Positions 3,568-15,140 of a stretch of DNA of 21,724 bases are shown in pieces (position 1 is the stretch's first letter; every line of letters starts with the position of its first letter). The DNA is taken from positions 1-21,724 of the IMG/VR virus record IMGVR_UViG_3300037468_000790. One strand, written 5' to 3'. Position numbers and translations under genes: made by a program. The notes under the pieces were generated by a model. That model was not told the origin of the DNA. It did no database searches and saw nothing but the letters and a program-made list of their open reading frames with translations. This DNA is from a virus.

Positions 3568-4249
3568 GATAGCTTTCCTTGGCTTGTGCGGACGACCACC
3601 CTACGCGCAGATGAAATCCCTCCATCACGTGAACGTCTACCGTCTTCGTCGCGGGATTGATGATCAAGCCCATGGTCGCGCCTTTGACCAAACGGCCCAG
3701 GCGCTGGCCCACCTCACGAACGGCGGCATGCTTGCGCTCGAGAATCGCCTGCATCTTCCGCTCGTTGTGCGCGGCCTTCGTGCGCTCAGAGACCCGCGCG
3801 AGCCACGCGGCTTCCTTCGGTCCGGGCTGTCCGATTGTAGCGCGCCACTGCTGAGCCTGTAGGCCGTTGCTCGCGAGACCGGCCTTCACTTCGTACACAC
3901 GGTGATCTTCCACCAGGTCCACGGGAAAGTTGTTGCGCTCTACGTTCAGAGTGCGAGCGTCCTTGAAGCCCTGGTCCTGTAAGAAGCGCACAGCCAGCTC
4001 CTCGCCGAGGCGACCCGTTTCCAGCTTCGAGGGGCGCTCACCAGTAGGCGCTTCCATGGCCCGCCGCGAGGTGGACTTGAGAGAGCCTCCGCCGCCTCGA
4101 GTGGTCCACTGATTGCCGTGGAACTCGTGACCAGGAAGGTCGCCCGCCGCTCGTAACTCGTCTGGCATCTCATCCGGCTCAAGAAGTTCCGCAAACAATG
4201 CGCGGTCGTCCATCTCACCGTTCTCATCTACCAATGCGAACTCAGGCAC
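3548..4249 (-). CDS. GHEFHGNQWT-motif protein with PD-(D/E)XK-like nuclease domain
   Basis: This 233-residue protein starts at GTG 4249, overlapping the MuF gene stop by 8 bases. Residues 1-35 form an acidic leader. The shared motif GDLPGHEFHGNQWT is at 36-49, followed by a Gly/Ser linker. From about residue 79 the pattern GRLGEELAVRFLQDQGF, then Asp111 (NFPVDLVED), then Glu120-Val-Lys122 (VYEVKAG) matches a PD-(D/E)XK restriction-endonuclease-like core of the UPF0102/RecB-nuclease type, with Glu84 as a possible further metal ligand. The rest is basic and helical, ending in a beta-like tail. I infer that a DNA nuclease-like domain is carried as motif-tagged cargo. The fold call rests on a short motif set; activity and target are unknown. 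Confidence 0.7.
   Translation of the reverse strand: MPEFALVDENGEMDDRALFAELLEPDEMPDELRAAGDLPGHEFHGNQWTTRGGGGSLKSTSRRAMEAPTGERPSKLETGRLGEELAVRFLQDQGFKDARTLNVERNNFPVDLVEDHRVYEVKAGLASNGLQAQQWRATIGQPGPKEAAWLARVSERTKAAHNERKMQAILERKHAAVREVGQRLGRLVKGATMGLIINPATKTVDVHVMEGFHLRVGWSSAQAKESYRGSYKY
4103..4144 (-). repeat. GHEFHGNQWT motif copy 6 (nuclease-like protein)
   Basis: This copy encodes GDLPGHEFHGNQWT, residues 36-49 of the nuclease-like protein. It is preceded by DELRAA, the same L/M-R-x-A lead seen before most other copies, and followed by Thr-Arg-Gly-Gly-Gly-Gly-Ser. Confidence 0.95.
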
Positions 4250-5879
4250 CCTTCTTCTCCTTCAGCTTCTTGTCCAGACGGGCCTTGAACTCCGTCGCGG
4301 CGGGCGTCCCGAAGTGCATGACCGCGGACCACGAGGTGCCGAGCATCGCGGTCTTACCGGCAGGGTGGTCCGCCACGCGAGAAGGGCCGTCGGGACCAGC
4401 GCTCAGGCGCAGCAACTCAGCGCGCTCTGCGAGACGTGCAGGAGTCAGAGCCATATTGCTATTCCTGAACTTCCGTGCGAGAGCAGAATAAAAAGCCAAC
4501 CCTTCCTGCTCGAAGCCGAGTTTGCCCCACGCGTATCCGCCCACGTTGAGGTTCGCCTGGAGCCTGACCTCGTCCACGCCCATCCTCTCGTACAGCGCGA
4601 CACTGTCCACGAGCATCTTCGTCGCGACACCCTCACCCTGGCGCGCGAGCGGCAGCGTGAAATACTCGTGCTCTGCGCGCAGGACATCTCCGTCTCGTTC
4701 GAAAACCCGCTGGATGTGCGCCGCGCTCTCGGATCCATGAACCACGTCCAGCTTCACGGTAAACTTCTCGAGGCTGAGTCGCAGGCTCACTACTGGATCC
4801 GTTCCCCCTACCGCCTCGGCCATGATGTCAGACGTACCACCCAGCAGCGCTTCGGTCTTTTCTCGGCTCAAATCCAAAACACTCGCTGCCGTTTCTAAAA
4901 ACTGCTCGCGCGATGTTGGATCCCCGTCCAAGTCATAGAACCGCGCGTCCTTAATAGATTTGAAAGAACCAGATCCCCCCGAACTACCCGCACCCTTGCC
5001 GGTCCACTGGTTGCCGTGGAATTCGTGTCCGGGGAGGTCACCGAGCCAGCGCGCCGCCGCGCGCCGCGGGAACGTCAGCACCGTCGTGCAGCGACAGTTG
5101 GGATGGAGCGGCGGATTCTCGATCTCCGTGCCGTCCTCGTCCGAGAACGGCTCCTCGAGATCAGCCGTCTCCTGGTCCATCGCCTCGCAGAGCGGGCAGA
5201 GCCTGTCGTCCGGCGTGACAATCCACTTGCGGAGAGTGCCGTCCGGCAGCTCGCCCGCGTCGCGCGCTGCGCGCCATTCAGCACGTTGGCCCTCGTTCGA
5301 GGCGCGCATCGTCTCGGTCCGCGCGATGAGCCTACCGCGGTCCGCGAGGAGCTTGTCGGCGTACGCCTGCACGCGTCGCTCCATCCACTCCGTCGTGACA
5401 TCCACCGGCACACGAATCGCGACGTTTCCGGCCCACAGCTTCGCGCCGGGGCTCGCGAGGATCTCTGCGCGCAGCGCCCGCACCGCCTCCGCTTGGTCGG
5501 AGCGCAGACCGACGATGGAGCGGAGCAGGCGCGCGGCCTCGGCCGGCGGGATGCCCTGCTCGAAGATCGCAGCAACCGTCTCGCGCAGCGCGGCACGCAT
5601 CTCAACCGTCGTCTCCGTGACGAGCCTCGCAGCGTGTGCTCGCGCCCATGCGACGGCCCGAGGATTCGTCAGCTCGAAGGAGCCGCGGAGTGGGCCGGCC
5701 TTCGGGGTCGGGCGCTTGGCGAGGCGCAAATGCCCTGCCTGCCCGACCTTAAGCGCATACCCCTCATACTTGGCAAAGCGATCCGCCCAGCTAAAGGTAG
5801 TGGACGCGAATGGGCGCACGCCTAGCTCGACGTCCAGCTCCTCTTCGTACAGTGCTGCGTCCCTCGTCACGGTCCGCAC
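4242..5879 (-). CDS. Mu gpF-like head morphogenesis protein fused to motif and GNAT domain
   Basis: This 545-residue protein starts at GTG 5879, immediately after the upstream stop. Residues about 60-270 are Mu gpF-like: a helical region, then TRTETMRASNEG-type sequence, then the metal-binding signature Cys228-x2-Cys231 (LCPLCEAMD) and His259-x2-Cys262-x-Cys264 (PPLHPNCRCT). Family members are minor head proteins linked to portal and head assembly. The shared motif is at 280-293, followed by a Gly/Ser linker. A C-terminal domain resembles a GNAT acetyltransferase: the acyl-CoA loop RQGEGVA (413-419), a helix (TKMLVDSVALYERMG) and GGYAWGKLGF (447-456). The last 70 residues are basic and helical. 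Fusion of MuF to enzyme or toxin domains is known from phages; here the joint is the same peptide used in three neighbouring genes. Confidence 0.88.
   Translation of the reverse strand: MRTVTRDAALYEEELDVELGVRPFASTTFSWADRFAKYEGYALKVGQAGHLRLAKRPTPKAGPLRGSFELTNPRAVAWARAHAARLVTETTVEMRAALRETVAAIFEQGIPPAEAARLLRSIVGLRSDQAEAVRALRAEILASPGAKLWAGNVAIRVPVDVTTEWMERRVQAYADKLLADRGRLIARTETMRASNEGQRAEWRAARDAGELPDGTLRKWIVTPDDRLCPLCEAMDQETADLEEPFSDEDGTEIENPPLHPNCRCTTVLTFPRRAAARWLGDLPGHEFHGNQWTGKGAGSSGGSGSFKSIKDARFYDLDGDPTSREQFLETAASVLDLSREKTEALLGGTSDIMAEAVGGTDPVVSLRLSLEKFTVKLDVVHGSESAAHIQRVFERDGDVLRAEHEYFTLPLARQGEGVATKMLVDSVALYERMGVDEVRLQANLNVGGYAWGKLGFEQEGLAFYSALARKFRNSNMALTPARLAERAELLRLSAGPDGPSRVADHPAGKTAMLGTSWSAVMHFGTPAATEFKARLDKKLKEKKGA
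5001..5042 (-). repeat. GHEFHGNQWT motif copy 5 (MuF-GNAT protein)
   Basis: This copy encodes GDLPGHEFHGNQWT at residues 280-293, exactly between the MuF zinc-type region and the GNAT-like domain. The lead differs (AARWL in place of LRxA). Several third codon positions differ from the copy at 4103. Confidence 0.95.
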
Positions 5880-7298
5880 TCAGAACACCCCAATCTGCTC
5901 GACGGTGATGATGTTCACCGTCTTCCAACGCCGGTTGCCGGTCTTCTGGTCCTCGAAATTGATACGGTCCTGCGTCCGTGACACCACTCGAAACCGGCCG
6001 GCGCTTGACAGCTCACGATCCGCGGAGACCGAGATGTGGTACCCGTGAGACGGGCCGAGCGGATGAACTGAGCGGTCCTTCGGCGTCTGCATGACTGGCA
6101 GCAAGATGTGTTCGTTTCCCTCTGCGGCGCGTTTGACATGCTCCAGCGCCTTCACGTCCAGCATCTTCGCACCTGGCTTGACGACGAACAGGTTCTTCCC
6201 CGCGTAGGTCAGCGCCACGTCTTGGTCCATGGTGAACGCTGTCGGCCCGCGAAGCTCGAACTCGTCTCCTTTTGGTGTGACGGACGCGCCGCGATAGACC
6301 TTGACGTCGGTGGATGGCACGTCGCGAACCGACGCGTAATATCCGGATGCCTCTGCGGCGAGCTGCTCCACGCGCTCCCTGGGCAACAGTGAAACCAATG
6401 CGTTTCCGGTCGGGTCGTCGCGATCGCGCTGCTGCCGGGCGTGCTGGGCAGCGACGTGCTTATTCGCCATGATCTGGTCCGTCGACTTACCCTGCGCGGC
6501 CATCTCCACTATCGCGCGCACAGCCAATCCGGTCCCCTGATCGAGGGACGCGTACTCAGTCACAACGTCCGCAGCGCCACGCATGTCGGAGCTCCGTTCA
6601 TACTCCTCCACGGCGCGAGCCATCGCGACCTTGTTCTCCGCGACGGACATATCTTGAATTGCCGACGGGCGGGGGACGACATTGACGCCTCCATTTCCCG
6701 TCCACTGATTCCCGTGGAACTCGTGGCCGGGGAGGTCGCCGGCGGTGCGCAGTGAACTGTGCCCCTCCAAAACCTTGTAATCGGCCACACGAACTGATTC
6801 CTTCAACTTGAAATCACTCTTGGAAATCTGGTCCTGCAACACTTGATGTATGTCGGTGGGAAGTACCTTGAAACTCACTACAATTCCAGGCTCATCATGA
6901 ACCTGAGTACTCGCGTAATAGTCCGCCGTCTCTCGGTCCGTCGTGAACACATTGGCACGGTTAGCTTCAATCGTCTTAGTGACTTGGAATTTCGCGAATC
7001 CCTCTTTGCTCATTCCGCGATAAAATGTTGTGTTGGGATCCACTCCTCCTTTCCATTGCTCTTCTTGTCCACCGGAGCCACTTGTCCACTGGTTCCCGTG
7101 AAACGGATGCCCTGGACCCTCACCCGCCGTGCGGAGCGCACTCTTCGCCGCGAGCTCACGTGGTTTCCCTGTGTCAATGGCTAGGGCCTGCATCTTCGCA
7201 CTTTTCTCATTCTCGTGATTACCGACCAAAGAGCCACGCAAGAAAACGGACCACACCTGCCACCCACCCACTTTGCGTAGCTGAACAGATGTATTCAT
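5880..7298 (-). CDS. Double motif protein with two ADP-ribosyltransferase-like domains
   Basis: This 472-residue protein starts at ATG 7298, overlapping the upstream stop (ATGA). Residues 1-45 form a small domain (GGWQVWSVFLRGSLVG). Motif copy one (59-72, variant GEGPGHPFHGNQWT) and a Gly/Ser linker precede an ADP-ribosyltransferase-like domain: Arg94 in FYRGM, Thr119-Thr120 in NVFTTDRETADYYA, and Glu167 as a possible catalytic residue. Motif copy two (187-200) precedes a helical region (215-325) and a second ART-like domain: Arg336 in VYRGAS, AFTMDQDVALTYA (354-366), and Glu396 in GNEHILLP. The usual Gln/Glu two residues before the catalytic Glu is Gly394 here, so activity is uncertain. ART domains move ADP-ribose from NAD+ onto targets, and phages such as T4 inject ARTs with their DNA. 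Cargo status is my inference from motif and location. Confidence 0.78.
   Translation of the reverse strand: MNTSVQLRKVGGWQVWSVFLRGSLVGNHENEKSAKMQALAIDTGKPRELAAKSALRTAGEGPGHPFHGNQWTSGSGGQEEQWKGGVDPNTTFYRGMSKEGFAKFQVTKTIEANRANVFTTDRETADYYASTQVHDEPGIVVSFKVLPTDIHQVLQDQISKSDFKLKESVRVADYKVLEGHSSLRTAGDLPGHEFHGNQWTGNGGVNVVPRPSAIQDMSVAENKVAMARAVEEYERSSDMRGAADVVTEYASLDQGTGLAVRAIVEMAAQGKSTDQIMANKHVAAQHARQQRDRDDPTGNALVSLLPRERVEQLAAEASGYYASVRDVPSTDVKVYRGASVTPKGDEFELRGPTAFTMDQDVALTYAGKNLFVVKPGAKMLDVKALEHVKRAAEGNEHILLPVMQTPKDRSVHPLGPSHGYHISVSADRELSSAGRFRVVSRTQDRINFEDQKTGNRRWKTVNIITVEQIGVF
6699..6740 (-). repeat. GHEFHGNQWT motif copy 4 (second copy in ART-like protein)
   Basis: This copy encodes GDLPGHEFHGNQWT at residues 187-200, preceded by SSLRTA. 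It lies between the first ART-like domain and the helical region leading to the second. Confidence 0.95.
7083..7124 (-). repeat. GHEFHGNQWT motif copy 3, variant GEGPGHPFHGNQWT
   Basis: This is the only copy with amino-acid changes: Asp-Leu to Glu-Gly, and Glu to Pro. P-G-H-x-F-H-G-N-Q-W-T is retained. It is preceded by AAKSALRTA, closely matching AAKSVLRIA before the copy at 7793, so similarity extends upstream of the motif in these two. Confidence 0.93.
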
Positions 7299-8776
7299 TT
7301 TTTCACGCCAATCCCAGTAGCAACAACGGCACGTATGGTATCAGCTCCTGACATGTAAGCCGCCGTTGCGCGATGGTAGCCGTCAACAATCTCGTAGCGC
7401 CCGTTGGCCTTGAGCACGACCTTAATGGTGGCTTTCGACGCCTTGCCCTCTAGCTTAGCCTTAATACCCCCTGGGAAAACCTTACCTTGCAGACCGGCAA
7501 CTAAGAGGCGCACCGGCACGTCACGAGTCTCCAGAGGTACCTTACGATCGCGACTGGCCCCAACGCGCAATGAATGTGGAAACGGATGAACAACCCCCTC
7601 TTTCCATTGTTCCTGGGTCGGCCAACCCTTCGTGTCACCAGCATACGCGGCGACACCATTCAATGCGGCTAGAGCCTCCTCACGATTGGAATAACGCTCC
7701 AGAGGCGACGCTATAACTTTCTCTGGAAAATCAAACTGCCCACGCGACGACGGTTCTGGCGGGAAGAAAGTAGAGACATTGCCAACACCAGTTGTCCACT
7801 GATTCCCGTGAAACTCATGCCCAGGCAAGTCACCTGCTATGCGCAGCACGCTCTTCGCCGCGAGCTGCGCGCCTTTCAGGGCGACGCCCACTAGGACCGG
7901 CTCCACCTCGCGCGCGAAGGTCGCCGCGAACACGCGCACCGCATCCTCGGCGACGGTCTCGGACTTGCCGGCGGAGAGCTCGGACTCGAGGCGATCGGCC
8001 GCATGGCGCAACCTTGGCCAGGACTTGTCGGCGAAGTGCCCCGCCGTGCGGAGTGTGCCCAGATCTTCAACCCCCACACCAAGCAATGCTTTTAGCTTAT
8101 ACTCTCTACCTGTGTCTTCTACATCTGCTCCGTGGGAAATGATTGATTTCCAGAAACGATTGGCATCAGGTGAGCGAGAGTCATGTTGACTCGCGATACC
8201 TGCGAATCCCTTCTTCTTCAAGTAGCCATGGACTTCTTTTAGAAGAGTAAACCCGGTGCCCTTCTGAGCCACCTCCATTGAAGTGATGTACGCCCAATCA
8301 TTTCCCAAAGAAGTCTCTAGTCGACGACCTCCAGGTGTAGCTGTTTCCACCTTCAGATAACCACCTTCGCCCGGCAATCTGAAGGTCAACGCAGGTATAC
8401 CACGCAAGGATTCGGTTTGAGAAACTGTAATATCGTGGCCCAGGACGTCACCACCGGCTCCGCCACCGGTCCACTGGTTCCCGTGGAACTCGTGCCCGGG
8501 CAAGTCGCCAGCAGCGCGCATTTCAGAATGACGTACGCCCCACGCCCCGATGCACTGCCCGGCGTTCTCGCCGTCCTCTACTCGCGGGTGCTGTGACTCC
8601 TCCCACTCGGCGAGAGAGCGCGCCAGCCCCGGCCCACCCAGCGCATGACGCGCGAGCTCAGCCGCGCGCAGGAAGGCCCTGCGGACGGCTCCTTCGGCGC
8701 GGGAGGCGACATCGAGGAGCTTGCGCCAGCTCTTGTCGGCTGCGACGCGCGGAACGAGCGTGAGAAGGGCGCTCAT
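7295..8776 (-). CDS. Double motif protein with GNAT-like and ParB/sulfiredoxin-like domains
   Basis: This 493-residue protein begins at ATG 8776, overlapping the portal stop (ATGA). An N-terminal helical segment contains ADKSW (13-17). Motif copy one (90-103) and a Gly linker lead to a GNAT-like domain: WAYITSMEVAQKGTG with acyl-CoA loop QKGTG (171-175), then a helix (LLKEVHGYLKKKG) and ANRFWKSI. A second ADKSW-containing helical segment starts at 249, followed by motif copy two (315-328). The C-terminal domain is ParB/sulfiredoxin-like: VPVRLL, Gly/Lys-rich strands, then YEIVDGYHRATAAYMSGA with Asp465-Gly-Tyr-His468-Arg469. Such folds bind nucleotides and occur as CTPases, nucleases or kinases. 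The gene is thus two tandem units of helical segment, motif and enzyme-like domain. The location after the portal suggests a head- or portal-associated protein; function is inferred. Confidence 0.78.
   Translation of the reverse strand: MSALLTLVPRVAADKSWRKLLDVASRAEGAVRRAFLRAAELARHALGGPGLARSLAEWEESQHPRVEDGENAGQCIGAWGVRHSEMRAAGDLPGHEFHGNQWTGGGAGGDVLGHDITVSQTESLRGIPALTFRLPGEGGYLKVETATPGGRRLETSLGNDWAYITSMEVAQKGTGFTLLKEVHGYLKKKGFAGIASQHDSRSPDANRFWKSIISHGADVEDTGREYKLKALLGVGVEDLGTLRTAGHFADKSWPRLRHAADRLESELSAGKSETVAEDAVRVFAATFAREVEPVLVGVALKGAQLAAKSVLRIAGDLPGHEFHGNQWTTGVGNVSTFFPPEPSSRGQFDFPEKVIASPLERYSNREEALAALNGVAAYAGDTKGWPTQEQWKEGVVHPFPHSLRVGASRDRKVPLETRDVPVRLLVAGLQGKVFPGGIKAKLEGKASKATIKVVLKANGRYEIVDGYHRATAAYMSGADTIRAVVATGIGVKK
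7793..7834 (-). repeat. GHEFHGNQWT motif copy 2 (before ParB-like domain)
   Basis: This copy encodes GDLPGHEFHGNQWT at residues 315-328, preceded by AAKSVLRIA. It differs from the copy at 8468 at several synonymous third positions while the peptide is identical. Confidence 0.95.
8468..8509 (-). repeat. GHEFHGNQWT motif copy 1 (before GNAT-like domain)
   Basis: This copy encodes GDLPGHEFHGNQWT at residues 90-103, preceded by SEMRAA and followed by a Gly-rich linker. It is the first copy in the direction of transcription, just after the portal gene. Confidence 0.95.
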
Positions 8777-10161: not shown

Positions 10162-10281
10162 CTACTTGTATCGCTTCAAGGAAGGAATACCGGAGTGTGC
10201 CTTGACGATATCAGTGAGATCAGGAAACGCTGATTCAACAGTTTCCGGCTTGGCCTCCTCCCCGTCTCTGACTCGAGTCAT
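10162..10281 (-). CDS. Small protein between terminase and portal genes, 39 aa
   Basis: The 120 bases between TerL and portal form a complete frame. Its ATG (10279-10281) overlaps the TerL stop (TAATG) and its TAG abuts the portal ATG with no gap. The product is soluble and charged: an acidic, Glu/Pro-rich start, then VESAFPDLTDIVKAHSG, then a basic end (IPSLKRYK). A GGGAGGAGG stretch within the gene cannot serve its own start, so translation probably depends on coupling to TerL. I recognise no family. Roles at the portal-terminase interface are possible but not shown. Confidence 0.7.
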   Translation of the reverse strand: MTRVRDGEEAKPETVESAFPDLTDIVKAHSGIPSLKRYK

Positions 10282-11777
10282 TACCAGAGCACCTCTAGTT
10301 GTGGCCCACCGACATCTGTCACAGGCGCAAAGGCTAGCATGACCGCCTCCGCTCTGTTAGGCGAGGGCACGCCGCGTCGTTTCGCATCGTCCTTCGATTC
10401 GATCAAGATCTTGCCAGCCGAGGTACGCTTATAGCGCAAGGACACGAGTTCTGCCGCGGTGTCCTCGTCGAGGGGGTCAAGGTCTACCTCCCCGCTCTCA
10501 AAGCGTTCACGCACGCCCCACCACAGTTCAGCCTTGAGGTTCGCGAACGTCTCAGCATCTCGCGCTTGCTCACCCACACTTACGCCCACGAAGGGCGCGT
10601 CGAGGACCTTCTCCTGGGCCAGCTCGATGCTGCGGTCGTAGATACCTTTGCCGATGCCGATCTTATCAACTTTGACCGACGTAGCGCCCGTCTGCCTTCT
10701 CAGTGTAACCACCTTGCCGCACGTCTGCATCGTGTCCGGGTTATGATCCTCGTGGATGAGACGCACGACGGGGCCGCGCCGGTGTGCTACGGTCGAGGAG
10801 TCCCCGCCCGCACCGACGTCTACGCCTAGCTCGTTAGGTTCACTCGGAGCAAGTTCGCGCTCCATCGCTGCTCGTACCCACACGAACGGAATCAACCCAT
10901 TCTCGAGGGAAGCGCGCGGAAACAAGCCCAACACTTTGCTTTGCCAAAACGGGTGCGTGTCTGTCGGGTCGATGCCCTCAGGCGGCACGACACGCTTGTT
11001 GTCGGCCGTCCAGCGCCAAGCCGGCGCCCACTTGCGCCGCTTCTCTTCCACGTACGTACGACTGATGAGCAAACCCGCAAGATCCTTTGGAATTAGTTCT
11101 CCCGTAAAGGCCGGTGTGTCAAACGCGCCTACTTGAATCACGTGCCACCCACTGCCCGGCTTGCAAAGGTCAGCAAACTCGGTCGTAGGATCATCAGGGT
11201 TGCCAATCGCGAGCGCTTTCGATTCCTCGTTAGCAATAAGCGAGTCGGCCGCATCCCACAACGGGCCGCGCACGCCGCACGCTTCATCGAGAGCTACAAG
11301 CACCCGTCTTGCATGGATGCCCTGAAAGGCGGCCGGATCATGCTCGTCTGGCTTTCGCCCATAGGCTACGAGTTCCTCTTTGCCGCTAGTACTCTCAAGG
11401 TGCCACTCTGTCTGATTCGTCCGTCCGGGCAAGTCACCGCGAGAGTGCGCACGGTTGATTTCGCGCCACAGGATGGCCTTAACCTGCGGGCCCGTAGGCG
11501 CGGTCGTAACGACAAAGGCCTCGCCAGGCACATCCGTAGAGATCCACCAACAGATCGCCACCGCTGTAATGAACGACTTGCCGATGTCGTGACAACTCTG
11601 CACCGCAACGCGACGATGATCACGCAGCGCATCGAGGACTTTACGCTGGGCAGACCAGAGCTTAACCCCCAGGACGTCCTCCGCCCACGCTACCGGGTGC
11701 TGGCGATAGAAGCGACGAAGAAGCTCCTGCTCTAAAAATTGCGCCTCGTCCTGAATCAGGGCGAGCTCGGCGCTCAA
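10281..11777 (-). CDS. terL: Terminase large subunit (DNA-packaging ATPase/nuclease)
   Basis: This 498-residue protein packages phage DNA into the prohead. The N-terminal ATPase shows a Walker A-type loop, VQSCHDIGKSF (59-69, Lys67), and a Walker B segment, RVLVALDEACG, with Asp164-Glu165. VVTTAPTGPQVK (89-100) is typical of phage terminases. The C-terminal nuclease has Asp320 in ELGVDVGAGGDSS and Asp371 in VDKIGIGKG, the RNase H-like acidic residues that cut DNA at the start and end of packaging. The start is TTG 11777, overlapping the upstream stop (TTGA at 11774-11777). No in-frame ATG lies close enough to be preferred. It follows a putative small subunit and precedes a 39-residue gene and the portal. 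Confidence 0.95.
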   Translation of the reverse strand: MSAELALIQDEAQFLEQELLRRFYRQHPVAWAEDVLGVKLWSAQRKVLDALRDHRRVAVQSCHDIGKSFITAVAICWWISTDVPGEAFVVTTAPTGPQVKAILWREINRAHSRGDLPGRTNQTEWHLESTSGKEELVAYGRKPDEHDPAAFQGIHARRVLVALDEACGVRGPLWDAADSLIANEESKALAIGNPDDPTTEFADLCKPGSGWHVIQVGAFDTPAFTGELIPKDLAGLLISRTYVEEKRRKWAPAWRWTADNKRVVPPEGIDPTDTHPFWQSKVLGLFPRASLENGLIPFVWVRAAMERELAPSEPNELGVDVGAGGDSSTVAHRRGPVVRLIHEDHNPDTMQTCGKVVTLRRQTGATSVKVDKIGIGKGIYDRSIELAQEKVLDAPFVGVSVGEQARDAETFANLKAELWWGVRERFESGEVDLDPLDEDTAAELVSLRYKRTSAGKILIESKDDAKRRGVPSPNRAEAVMLAFAPVTDVGGPQLEVLW

Positions 11778-12085
11778 TTTAGAAGCGTTTCTTCTTTCAC
11801 GTCGGGCCTCAGTTGCCTCGCGCGCTGCGCTAGCTCCTCGAGACGTTCGGCGAGCTGCGCGTCGTTCAAGCGATGCAACCCAGCAATGGACTTCTTAGTG
11901 AGGCGGTGCGTAACGCGCTGCGCGGGCCGTCCGTACGCCACGTTCCACAAGTGGATCTCGAGGCTCGGGTGCAACGTGCCTTCCTGCACCCTGATCTTGA
12001 GCGCATTACGATATGTCGAGGACTCTAGCACACCGCGACAAAAAGTCCGCATGCTGTCAGTGGGCTCGAGGTCATCATCTGACAT
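11774..12085 (-). CDS. Putative terminase small subunit
   Basis: A 103-residue soluble protein is encoded directly before the large terminase, with overlapping stop and start codons. The central stretch (ALKIRVQEGTLHPSLEIHLW, then NVAYGRPAQRV) resembles small proteins often encoded before TerL in uncultured phages, and the C-terminal third is a charged helix suited to oligomerisation. Small terminases recognise the packaging site and regulate TerL. Assignment is mainly by position, since no classical helix-turn-helix is obvious. The gene is the first after the promoter at 12096-12124. Its ATG lies only about 4 bases from the expected transcription start, so the message may be leaderless for this gene. 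Confidence 0.6.
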   Translation of the reverse strand: MSDDDLEPTDSMRTFCRGVLESSTYRNALKIRVQEGTLHPSLEIHLWNVAYGRPAQRVTHRLTKKSIAGLHRLNDAQLAERLEELAQRARQLRPDVKEETLLN

Positions 12086-12095
12086 GCTATTGAAT

Positions 12096-12124
12096 ATACT
12101 ATACTAACTGAGATTGCCTGTCAA
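12096..12124 (-). promoter_or_regulatory. Sigma-70-type promoter of the packaging/head operon
   Basis: On the minus strand a perfect -35 box TTGACA (12119-12124) is followed after 17 bases by TAGTAT (12096-12101), with an overlapping TATAGT at 15-base spacing. The spacer ends in TTAGTA, exactly as in the promoter at 16410-16438. Transcription should start near 12089 and read into the putative TerS gene and the packaging genes beyond. Confidence 0.75.
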
Positions 12125-12220
12125 CAAAAAATTGCCGTCATAGACCCGTCGTAACCCGAAAGTCTCGTTACACCGAAGGTTACTAGTCAGGTTTTAGTTT
12201 ATATTGTTGATATTATTATA

Positions 12221-12247
12221 GTTATATAAGTTATAGTAGTTATAATA
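12221..12247 (+). repeat. Three tandem 9-bp AT-rich repeats, GTTATAxxA
   Basis: Consecutive 9-mers GTTATATAA, GTTATAGTA and GTTATAATA share the core GTTATA. A degenerate fourth unit (ATTATTATA) precedes them at 12212-12220. Period and AT content resemble an iteron or DNA-unwinding element. Confidence 0.75.
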
Positions 12248-12310
12248 GAAAACAATTGAAAAGCACAATTTGTGAAGTCGGCCTAGGGCATTTTTCCAGT
12301 CTAATAGAAA

Positions 12311-12328
12311 GCTATAACCGCTATAACC
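12311..12328 (-). repeat. Two perfect tandem 9-bp repeats, GGTTATAGC
   Basis: The plus strand reads GCTATAACC twice without a gap. Its complement, GGTTATAGC, contains the GTTATA core of the array at 12221-12247, here in the opposite orientation. A single further GTTATAG lies on the plus strand at 12378-12384. Confidence 0.8.
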
Positions 12329-12466
12329 AGTCATGTTCGCCTGCCTGCAAAGTATTGAATCTACAGACTTTACTATCGTTATAGTTTTGAGATTCCCGAC
12401 CGAACCAAAAACGACGAATAACCTGGTAACCGCTGTTTTTACTGGCACTCCTAGGCATTTGTAAGC

Positions 12467-13000
12467 CTAAACACAACGAGTCCTCATACGCTTCCATGCC
12501 TTAACAACGCGCTTATTCACTCGAACGGCGACAATCTCTGCTCGAAGATTACGCATCTTAGTGCGTGCCCAGCGCTTCTCGATCCAGCTCGTCGCATTGG
12601 CCGCAGCGTACACCTCGGTTATACTCACCTCAAAAGGTTCTTGTCTTCCGTAAGCGTGATAAAGCCGGGCCTCTACCTCGAGCTTACGCACGCTCAATTC
12701 CCCCGGTAAAAGTTCTCGCCTCCATCCGCACACCACGACTCCGTTCAGCCTGTGCTTCCCGTGGCGCCATCCGAGCTCTTTAAGTCGTGCTCGTTCGTCG
12801 CTGCCCAACTCAGCACAGCGCACTACACCATCGATTGGTACACTCCCAAAATCTACTAGGCCTAAAGTCTTAGCAGGCGGATACAGTCTCCATCCGCACA
12901 CCACGACTCTGTTAAGTCTATACTTGCCGTGACGCCACCCAAGCGCTCTCAACTTAGACTTATCCTCGGACGACACTTCACTGCACCTTATTATATTCAA
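12467..13000 (-). CDS. Basic two-repeat protein, possible nucleic-acid binder
   Basis: This 177-residue protein starts at TTG 13000, overlapping the primase stop (TTGA at 12997-13000), the same arrangement as at TerL. Two units of about 36 residues, at 3-38 and 59-94, share the pattern R-C-x-E, then LGWRHGK, RLN and VVVCGWR, with a 56-residue period and two cysteines per unit. The DNA of the two units is also similar. The C-terminal half has a helical, strongly basic region (SWIEKRWARTKMRNLRAEI, then VNKRVVKAWKRMRTR). The basic charge and the place after the primase suggest DNA or RNA binding. I do not recognise the repeat. It is not an HNH endonuclease, because the required His/Asn pattern is absent. 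Confidence 0.7.
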   Translation of the reverse strand: MNIIRCSEVSSEDKSKLRALGWRHGKYRLNRVVVCGWRLYPPAKTLGLVDFGSVPIDGVVRCAELGSDERARLKELGWRHGKHRLNGVVVCGWRRELLPGELSVRKLEVEARLYHAYGRQEPFEVSITEVYAAANATSWIEKRWARTKMRNLRAEIVAVRVNKRVVKAWKRMRTRCV

Positions 13001-15042
13001 TCCTTCCCCCACCCCGGCGGCCGCCAGATGCCCTCGATAAGGTCGCGGCCCCACCCTCGGCACGAGCGCTTCTCCTCCTTCACCACTACACGTGAGAAGC
13101 CTAGCCGCTGCATAATTGCGATCACGCGCTCTGAGGCCCTCTCGTCGCGCTGTTGAAGCGGAACGTTCAGCACGGACCACACTGCCTGTGGTCCTACTCG
13201 CTGCTTCTCACCCTCAAGACCCTCGGTAAACGCGGCAAGAGGCTCCTCCCACGCATCCTCGATGCGCCGGGCCTCAGTCTCGCTAGCAGCGAACAGGTAC
13301 AAGCGCGGATCGAGCCGGACGCTGGCGCCGTTCTCCTCGAGGGCAACTGCCTCAGCCCACAGCTGATCCCGGTCAACCGTAAGACCGTCTACGTTGAACT
13401 TTTTCACTCGTACGGGCCAAAACCGCCGATTGCCCGTCATATCCTTGAGGTAAGAACCCGAATTTGTCGTGCCGATGATCACGAACTGGCGCGGCACGGC
13501 CACCGGGATACGGCCGTAAGCCATGCGCACTGGACCGTCGACCTGTCGCGACAGAGAAGCCTTGAGGTGATCGGTCTCTCTCTTTGAGCCGACGAGCTCT
13601 GCTACCTCGATTAACCACCGACCCGCGGTGCGTTCAATCATCTGCTTGGCGTCAAGCCCTAAAGGCAAATCGTCGGAGAACCACTCTTCTTTCGGGCACA
13701 GCGCGCGTAGCGCGGTCGACTTATTCCAGCCCTGGGCCGACTCAAGGACGAGCAGTTCATCGAACTTACAACCCGGCTGGCGCACGCGCCTTACTGCTGC
13801 TACCAGTACCAACTTACCTACGGCGCGGGTGTACTCGTTGTCAAGGGCCGACCCGTAGCGGGCCAGCCACGTCTCGACCCGAGGCACTCCATCCCAGCTT
13901 AGCGATGCCAAATAGTCGCGCACGGGGTGAAATCGGTGGCTCCTCGCGTCATCAAGCATCACGTCAATGAATAGATCCTTGGGCGGCCGAAACCCAAAAC
14001 GCGTGTCGGTCGCGAGCCAGAGTCGGGTGATCGCCGTATCGTCTAACGGAACGACCGACTGGCCATCCACAGAGATTAGTTGTTGGTCTGCGAAGGTATC
14101 GTGGGTCAGCTTTACGTTGAGTTTCGCTAATGCACGTCGTACGTTCTGCTGCGACGTAGAAAGAATCTTGCGGCCGTGGTCGTCTGTGATGAAGTCCGAT
14201 GCTCCTGAGCCCCAGATGCGCCGCAAAGACGCGATGAAATTCTTGCCCTTGTCACCGATCTCCTCAGCCAGCCGGGGCGCCCCCGCTAACGGATCGTCGT
14301 CCGGTTTAGCGTAAGTATTGCGAACAGCGTCTAGCCGGTCCTTCACCTCAGGGTCGCGCACGTGCTCGCCTGCCAGCCGCACCGCGGCCGTGCACTCCTC
14401 GAGGGTAAGCCCGAGCTGGTGCAGGAATCCTGCGAGGTATAGGCCCCAGAAGTGTCTCGCCTTACGCGGATTGTAATAGCGAGCGATCAGCGCGTAAGTA
14501 GCGAGGAGGTCCACGCCGCGCCGTAGGGCCTTCGGCTCGAGGACGAGAGCGGTAATGTCCTCGGCCAGCCACGCGAGGCGCTCGCCGTTCGGGTGTACAG
14601 AGGGCGGACACATGCTCTGGTGCTCGGCGCGCACCTCGATTAGCGTGGCGCGCGCTCGCTCATCGCGGGCGTCGGGCTCAAAGCAGAGATCCTTGTGAGC
14701 TAATGAGCGTTCGAATGGAGAAACAAAGAGCAGTTGTGAGATGGGCTTAGACGCACGTCCCCAGCCCGCGGTCTTGGGCAGGAACGCCGCCGCGGCGGCC
14801 GGCAAGATCTCCGGCGCGTCGAAGTCGACGGCCACGAGCTTGATTGAACGGTCCCGGTCGCGCGAGCTGACGAGGTGCAGACCTACGTTGTCCCCGGGTT
14901 CGAACTCCTCGGGAGTATACACCCGGCGCAGGCCGTCCCTGTCGCGTAGGTCCTTCGAACCCGGCTTGAGCGGTAGTGGGTACCATCCGAACGAGATGTA
15001 AAGCGCGGCCGCGTCCCGAGCGTTCTCGGTGAACACATGCAA
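12997..15042 (-). CDS. Primase-polymerase/VapE-type helicase fusion for phage replication
   Basis: This 681-residue replication protein carries an N-terminal Prim-Pol-like domain with Asp73-x-Asp75 in KLVAVDFD and a later RAEHQSMCPPSVHPNG segment (His141), the PPSxHPxG pattern of that family. A helical linker follows. Residues about 380-555 match a VapE/SF3-like ATPase: SWDGVPRVETWL, a Walker A-like LESAQGWNKST (Lys441) in which Asn replaces the last Gly, WLIEVAEL as Walker B, and IIGTTNSGSYL followed by GNRRFWPV. Such proteins prime and unwind DNA at phage origins. The start is TTG 15042, with AAGGGGAG 5 bases upstream; GTG 15036 is the alternative. Sequence before 15042 is open but GC-rich and unlike protein. 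The AT-rich repeat region lies one gene downstream. Confidence 0.9.
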   Translation of the reverse strand: MHVFTENARDAAALYISFGWYPLPLKPGSKDLRDRDGLRRVYTPEEFEPGDNVGLHLVSSRDRDRSIKLVAVDFDAPEILPAAAAAFLPKTAGWGRASKPISQLLFVSPFERSLAHKDLCFEPDARDERARATLIEVRAEHQSMCPPSVHPNGERLAWLAEDITALVLEPKALRRGVDLLATYALIARYYNPRKARHFWGLYLAGFLHQLGLTLEECTAAVRLAGEHVRDPEVKDRLDAVRNTYAKPDDDPLAGAPRLAEEIGDKGKNFIASLRRIWGSGASDFITDDHGRKILSTSQQNVRRALAKLNVKLTHDTFADQQLISVDGQSVVPLDDTAITRLWLATDTRFGFRPPKDLFIDVMLDDARSHRFHPVRDYLASLSWDGVPRVETWLARYGSALDNEYTRAVGKLVLVAAVRRVRQPGCKFDELLVLESAQGWNKSTALRALCPKEEWFSDDLPLGLDAKQMIERTAGRWLIEVAELVGSKRETDHLKASLSRQVDGPVRMAYGRIPVAVPRQFVIIGTTNSGSYLKDMTGNRRFWPVRVKKFNVDGLTVDRDQLWAEAVALEENGASVRLDPRLYLFAASETEARRIEDAWEEPLAAFTEGLEGEKQRVGPQAVWSVLNVPLQQRDERASERVIAIMQRLGFSRVVVKEEKRSCRGWGRDLIEGIWRPPGWGKD

Positions 15043-15140
15043 GGTCTCTCCCCTTGAATTAGAATGATGCGCCCCGGTCGCACGCCGACATCCCCGCCCG
15101 CCCGCGGCGCCCTGCACAGACGAGGACTTAGGGAGAGAGG

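Follow-up and report, generated by a model that had tools for sequence, protein, structure and literature searches.

Facing iteron arms and AT-rich DNA downstream of a prim-pol/VapE-type primase-helicase gene: a probable replication origin in an uncultured phage

Introduction

Origins of PICIs carry two sets of iterons flanking an AT-rich region, a layout that has been stated to be unique to PICIs (PMC6092414). In SaPIs, the C-terminal domain of the Rep protein binds iterons located directly downstream of its own gene (PMC7581432). VirE/VapE domains fused to primases are predicted helicases (PMC5862659). PMC6356513, citing Foley 1998, describes the Sfi21 element as an origin that is independent and becomes active upon infection. 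P4 alpha is described as a primase and helicase in a single protein, whose C-terminal winged helix binds repeats at the origin, and the replication protein of the plasmid pRN1 has the domain order prim-pol, SF3 helicase, winged helix, with an origin downstream of the gene (PMC4234260). Stem-loops were expected by the pRN1 authors to accompany proteins of the prim-pol/SF3/winged-helix type (PMC4234260). Here, an intergenic region of an uncultured phage was compared with these systems and with the corresponding regions of its relatives.

Results

Gene Neighborhood

The window, meaning the whole stretch of DNA that was analysed, is a virus record of 21,724 bp (a fragment) in which all called genes lie on the minus strand. 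The gene order is SNF2-type helicase, Pam3 gp33-like and gp34-like proteins, a prim-pol/VapE-type primase-helicase (13000–15117, minus; Pfam VapE 4.7e-64, Prim-Pol 1.6e-4), a protein with two internal repeats (12467–12994, minus), an intergenic gap, a terS-like gene (11774–12085, minus), the terminase large subunit gene terL (10281–11777, minus; phrog_2, 2.5e-29), portal, and Mu F-like. The primase-helicase is the proposed initiator. The terS-like gene was assigned by position and relatives: it shares 43% identity over 53 residues with the gene preceding TerL in locus L022, and its equivalents in L012 and L014 weakly match phrog_2538, a terminase small subunit. A search of viral contigs with the TerS of the window returned no relatives. 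The two-repeat protein, encoded between the initiator gene and the gap and adjoining the latter, contains two copies of a motif close to RLKxLGWRHGKxRLNxVVVCGWR; its sole match was a weak one to phrog_4401, and it gave no useful relatives.

The Intergenic Gap and Its Repeats

The gap between the replication module and terS covers 381 bp (12086–12466) with a GC content of 37%, compared to ~61% for the window. A sequence-only reading had placed it at 12107–12466; the end stands, and the start is moved to 12086, the first position upstream of the terS-like gene. The repeats which that reading had pointed out were all recovered. Three tandem GTTATAxxA 9-mers on the plus strand, GTTATATAA, GTTATAGTA and GTTATAATA at 12221, 12230 and 12239, make up the left iteron arm (12221–12247), and two tandem copies of GGTTATAGC on the minus strand, at 12311–12319 and 12320–12328, make up the right arm (12311–12328). 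Outer iteron-like sites, in the word form seen in relatives, are GTTACACC (12167) and GTTACTAG (12179) on the plus strand (12167–12183), and GGTTATT (12418) and GGTTACC (12426) on the minus strand (12418–12430). Along the plus strand, the plus sites at 12167, 12179, 12221, 12230 and 12239 are followed by the minus sites at 12314, 12323, 12418 and 12426; with plus sites on the left and minus sites on the right, the two arms therefore face each other. Each half also holds one site oriented opposite to its own arm, a single GGGTTACG on the minus strand at 12151–12155 and the additional GTTATAG, also noted earlier, on the plus strand at 12378–12384. The GTTAC form of the site extends the array both ways, to 12151–12430.

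These repeats are far more frequent than the composition of the gap predicts. GTTATA occurs eight times in the whole window, six of them in the gap, while dinucleotide shuffles of the gap contained a mean of 0.66 copies and none of 5000 reached six; for the commonest hexamer of any kind, reaching six had a P of 0.008. Three same-word pairs at one spacing were observed (maximum of 2 in 2000 shuffles), and 11 GTTA(C/T) sites were present against 0.5 expected. In a scan of the window, GTTATA (n = 6) reached a −log10P of 12.3 over the 1.5 kb that follow the primase, with all other window bins at 5.2 or below. The sharp AT-rich dip described from the letters is borne out both by the GC of the gap and by the least stable 60 bp of the window, a candidate melting element (12193–12252; minimum GC60 0.13) that overlaps the left arm. 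The 60 bp from 12193 averaged −0.96 kcal/step, compared to −1.16 for the next such stretch outside the gap and a window mean of −1.55 (sd 0.10).

An Rfam search gave no match. The DnaA box of classical plasmid iteron origins (TTWTNCACA, ≤1 mismatch) was looked for within 12086–12466 and not found. GC skew showed no switch at the gap and is uninformative here because all genes lie on one strand. An exact search of viral contigs with GGTTATAGCGGTTATAGC returned 39 stretches, nearly all coding for Gly-Tyr-Ser repeats and unrelated.

The Proposed Initiator

A profile built from nine primases was compared with the PDB and matched PriRep1 (7pds, "Similar to D. nodosus vapE") with an E-value of 1.8e-56, covering the helicase and part of the C-terminus. 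Judged by this profile, the product of the gene at 13000–15117 is homologous to the SaPI initiator PriRep1. AlphaFold2 modeled the last 136 residues (pLDDT 88) with a helical part first and then the order H-E-H-H-E-E, which is that of a winged helix; this predicted domain (13042–13248, minus) is our candidate iteron reader. Foldseek returned no significant PDB match for the C-terminal domain (best E 0.06, RepE), and many of the weak matches were winged helices, F-plasmid RepE among them. A second structural look placed the PriRep1–dsDNA complex (7pds) in the first row with a Z of 5.6, tied with unrelated winged helices. The P4 origin-binding domain was absent among the structural matches listed, which excludes nothing. 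The whole-length primase model had low confidence in the helicase core and was left unused. The array lies 570–850 bp downstream of the initiator gene with one small gene between.

Comparison with Described Origins

The locus shares with PICI and SaPI origins a homologous VapE-type helicase initiator (PriRep1, 7pds), multiple short iterons 3′ of the initiator gene, and two iteron sets around AT-rich DNA (plus arm 12167–12247, minus arm 12311–12430), the flanking being imperfect as 12193–12252 overlaps the inner left arm. At the C-terminus, where SaPI Rep binds its iterons, the window protein has a predicted winged helix, and word similarity follows this domain in relatives (below). Unlike in PICIs and SaPIs, the window has a prim-pol domain fused to its initiator, a gene intervening between initiator and array, and GTTATA as the word. 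The window is not a small satellite, as it carries portal, terL, and Mu F-like genes and has relatives on contigs as long as 67 kb or more.

The origin/PER element (302 bp) of Streptococcus thermophilus phage Sfi21, whose record annotates an origin of replication at 34487–34784, is likewise non-coding, directly follows a D5-type helicase gene, and has GTTAC-type repeats in facing arms round an AT-rich tract. Its top word, AGTAAC (nine copies), scored 12.3, compared to a best of 7.5 elsewhere in that genome. In Sfi21, however, prim-pol and helicase are separate genes, the helicase matches Pox_D5/DUF5906 and not VapE, and array and helicase gene overlap at the end of the gene. The domain plan described for P4 alpha is similar to that of the window protein, although P4 has a Toprim primase where the window has prim-pol. 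The pRN1 protein shares its domain order and a downstream origin with the window, but pRN1 has a large stem-loop and no iterons, whereas the gap showed no excess DNA folding (z 0.12). As an origin, the gap is of the known PICI/SaPI- and Sfi21-type class.

Word Arrays beside Related Primases

Using the alignment of nine primases as a query, 80 viral and 80 bacterial loci were collected. Arrays were scanned for as the most over-represented hexamer, on both strands, in 350 bp, with a Poisson test on an order-2 Markov background, and a cluster was called at a −log10P of at least 9. Of 67 viral loci, 55% had a word cluster in the first 1.5 kb downstream of the primase; among five control bins, the frequency was 15% at 1.5–4 kb downstream and 0–6% in the remaining bins. 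The bacterial and prophage loci behaved similarly (44% of 59, compared to 2–5% in control bins). By the scan test, about a quarter of the relatives (17 of 70) had no cluster. Named phages have such arrays too: they lie directly after the VapE-type gene in Paenibacillus phage Bob (GTTGCA, 10 copies), Marinobacter phage PS3 (GGTCAC, 8), and Acutalibacter phage Fontainebleau (GGTAAC, 9), and a few hundred bases after it in Pseudomonas phage vB_Pae_U5 (GGGACA, 7). On conservation of the 9-mers in relatives, which the sequence-only reading had proposed as a check, arrays recur beside the primase gene in many relatives, with a word that is phage-specific. Words included GTTACA/GGTTAC, GTAACA, ATTACA/GTAATA, CTTAAC, CCTAAC, GCTAAC, ACTACA, and CGATAA, with CCTTAC, CGTTCC, AAACCG, GTGACA, GTTCCA, TAGACA, and others at further loci.

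The commonest same-strand spacing was 9 bp (37 of 53 arrays), with 18 bp in 24. At 30 of 52 loci, compared to 2.3 expected, the array window contained the 60-mer of lowest GC in the locus, and sites were grouped by strand, with runs clearly fewer than in shuffled arrays (z > 1) in 35 of 53. One locus (L145) was excluded from later tests as its long one-sided array resembles a coding repeat. Two loci showed individual arrangements. On a 161-kb contig, a GGTTTA/GTAAAC cluster (n = 12; L131, 6100–6450) is upstream, not downstream, of the primase, and in L012 an HNH endonuclease-like ORF (4773–5189) sits between primase and array.

Relation of the Word to the Winged Helix

Among 29 full-length proteins, word similarity correlated with similarity of the winged helix (rho 0.22, P 0.012); with five protein parts tested, this single-variable P is only suggestive after correction. 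Multiple regression gave the winged helix a beta of 0.315 (permutation P 0.003), and in the same proteins word similarity had no link to the other four parts, which include prim-pol, linker, and helicase core. At the 21 loci that have both the primase and TerS as neighbors, the word again followed the winged helix (rho 0.24, P 0.02) and tracked neither TerS (rho −0.03, P 0.57) nor helicase core (0.04, P 0.39). The correlation is modest throughout (rho ~0.22–0.24). These statistics show that each phage probably uses its own repeat word, apparently matched to its own initiator protein. Separately, the primases of L142 and L143 have C-terminal regions that are 83% identical and top words that differ (GGGCTA and GGTAAC), which makes them a useful pair for locating specificity residues.

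Relatives of the Terminase and Other Functions of the Gap

The gap abuts terS, and a packaging site before terS had been the alternative named from the letters; it would be a pac/cos site bound by TerS. TerL lies within 1.2 kb downstream of 19 of 52 arrays, and at loci where the array is 2–4 kb from the primase (L086, L087, L104, L120), it stays near terS and adjoins it. Relatives of the terminase (TerL identity 53–61%) keep an intergenic stretch before terS. Where a primase is on the record (L007, L012/L013, L014, L015), a GTTAC array lies in or near this stretch, in both orientations and often with 9-bp spacing; L002, a 4-kb fragment without a detected primase, also has a GTTAC array. Other relatives with a primase have a different word, GTAAAC nearby in L003/L134 and GGTTTA upstream of the gene in L009/L131. 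No GTTAY array was found in L004, L006, L011, L016, L017, L019, and L020, which have no primase on the record and some of which are short fragments; such absence on records lacking the primase speaks against a TerS site. The closest primase (50%) is that of L022, where a homologous terS-like gene (43%) and the array are also present; the terminase there belongs to another family, Terminase_3. In L026/L027, the array follows the primase and no terS or terL was found beside it, and among arrays with 2.5 kb or more of sequence downstream, 21 had no detectable TerL. The Sfi21 array is far from the terS on its own record. Given that the word does not track TerS, that 21 arrays have no detectable TerL downstream, and that GTTAY arrays are absent without a primase, a TerS site is unlikely, and we regard packaging as a poor prospect for this gap. 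Gene order accounts for the closeness of array and terS: the replication module comes first, then the origin, then the late genes.

One TerL relative (L011, 3658–5000) has an AAA_25 protein in place of the VapE gene, with its own GCGGGA cluster (10 copies) immediately after it and ahead of terS; replication gene and origin look as though they had been swapped as a unit.

The repeats might also be an operator region, bound by a regulator (perhaps the two-repeat protein, whose gene adjoins the gap) that controls a late promoter before terS. A sigma70-like match, TTGACA-17-TAGTAT (12096–12124, minus), lies between array and terS within the gap and is a possible late promoter; ~1.2 such matches are expected by chance in the scanned region. 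However, phages that differ widely in their next genes also have the array after the primase gene, the two-repeat protein was searched for in array-bearing loci and had no relatives there, and the AT-rich melting element and facing arms suit an origin better. We consider the operator function slightly less probable still than packaging. A sigma70-like promoter before terS may occupy the same gap as the array, and a dual role as origin and operator is possible. From the start point implied by the promoter-like site, the transcript would have hardly any leader ahead of the terS ATG (12085).

That the repeats are due to chance or to the low complexity of an AT-rich spacer, where TATA-like words are more likely to arise, is refuted by conservation in relatives, whose arrays are far stronger and include GC-rich words, and with the shuffle results above the probability of this reading is next to nil.

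Discussion

The gap is very probably the replication origin of this phage, as the sequence-only reading had proposed. This is supported by the array and AT-rich element beside the replication gene in relatives, by the layout of the Sfi21 origin, and by PICI/SaPI origins. Counting against it are the one gene between initiator and array in the window, the overlap of the left arm with the AT-rich element in place of strict flanking, and the two sites inverted within the arms. The same holds for the relatives that have no cluster or an array 2–4 kb from the primase, for the lack of a GC-skew switch, for the modest size of the word correlation, and for the weak fold matches of the C-terminal domain. 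We infer that the primase-helicase (13000–15117) would bind 9-bp-spaced GTTA(C/T)A iterons through its C-terminal winged helix, with two groups of molecules loading on the two facing arms. The AT-rich stretch would then melt, the helicase domain would unwind the DNA, and the prim-pol domain would prime synthesis.

On these statistics, a layout once called unique to PICIs appears to be widespread in tailed phages, with an iteron word that seems to change fast, and the published claim of a PICI-only layout (PMC6092414) is called into question. We lean toward a broader proposal, that in tailed phages the initiators of prim-pol/VapE type and their origins make up an extensive natural set of matched pairs, in which winged helix and word would change together, fast and independently of the helicase core, under a layout common to a broad class of phages and prophages. 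If this is true, origin specificity could be read from sequence. For an uncultured phage such as this one, placing the origin reduces to a simple rule, namely to seek a repeated word just after the VapE-type helicase gene, and the many words of the relatives are ready data on how a winged helix picks its DNA site. Cells that carry additional copies of the Sfi21 origin are protected against phages (PMC6356513), and for this reason origins with distinct words would also predict which phages could be blocked by a decoy origin.

Outside the replication module, the peptide PGHEFHGNQWT (once PGHPFHGNQWT) was found in six copies in head-module proteins, one of which is Mu F-like. The copies, encoded on the minus strand at 4106–4135, 5004–5033, 6702–6731, 7086–7115, 7796–7825, and 8471–8500, each precede a different stretch, and the peptide resembles a linker or targeting tag common to these proteins.
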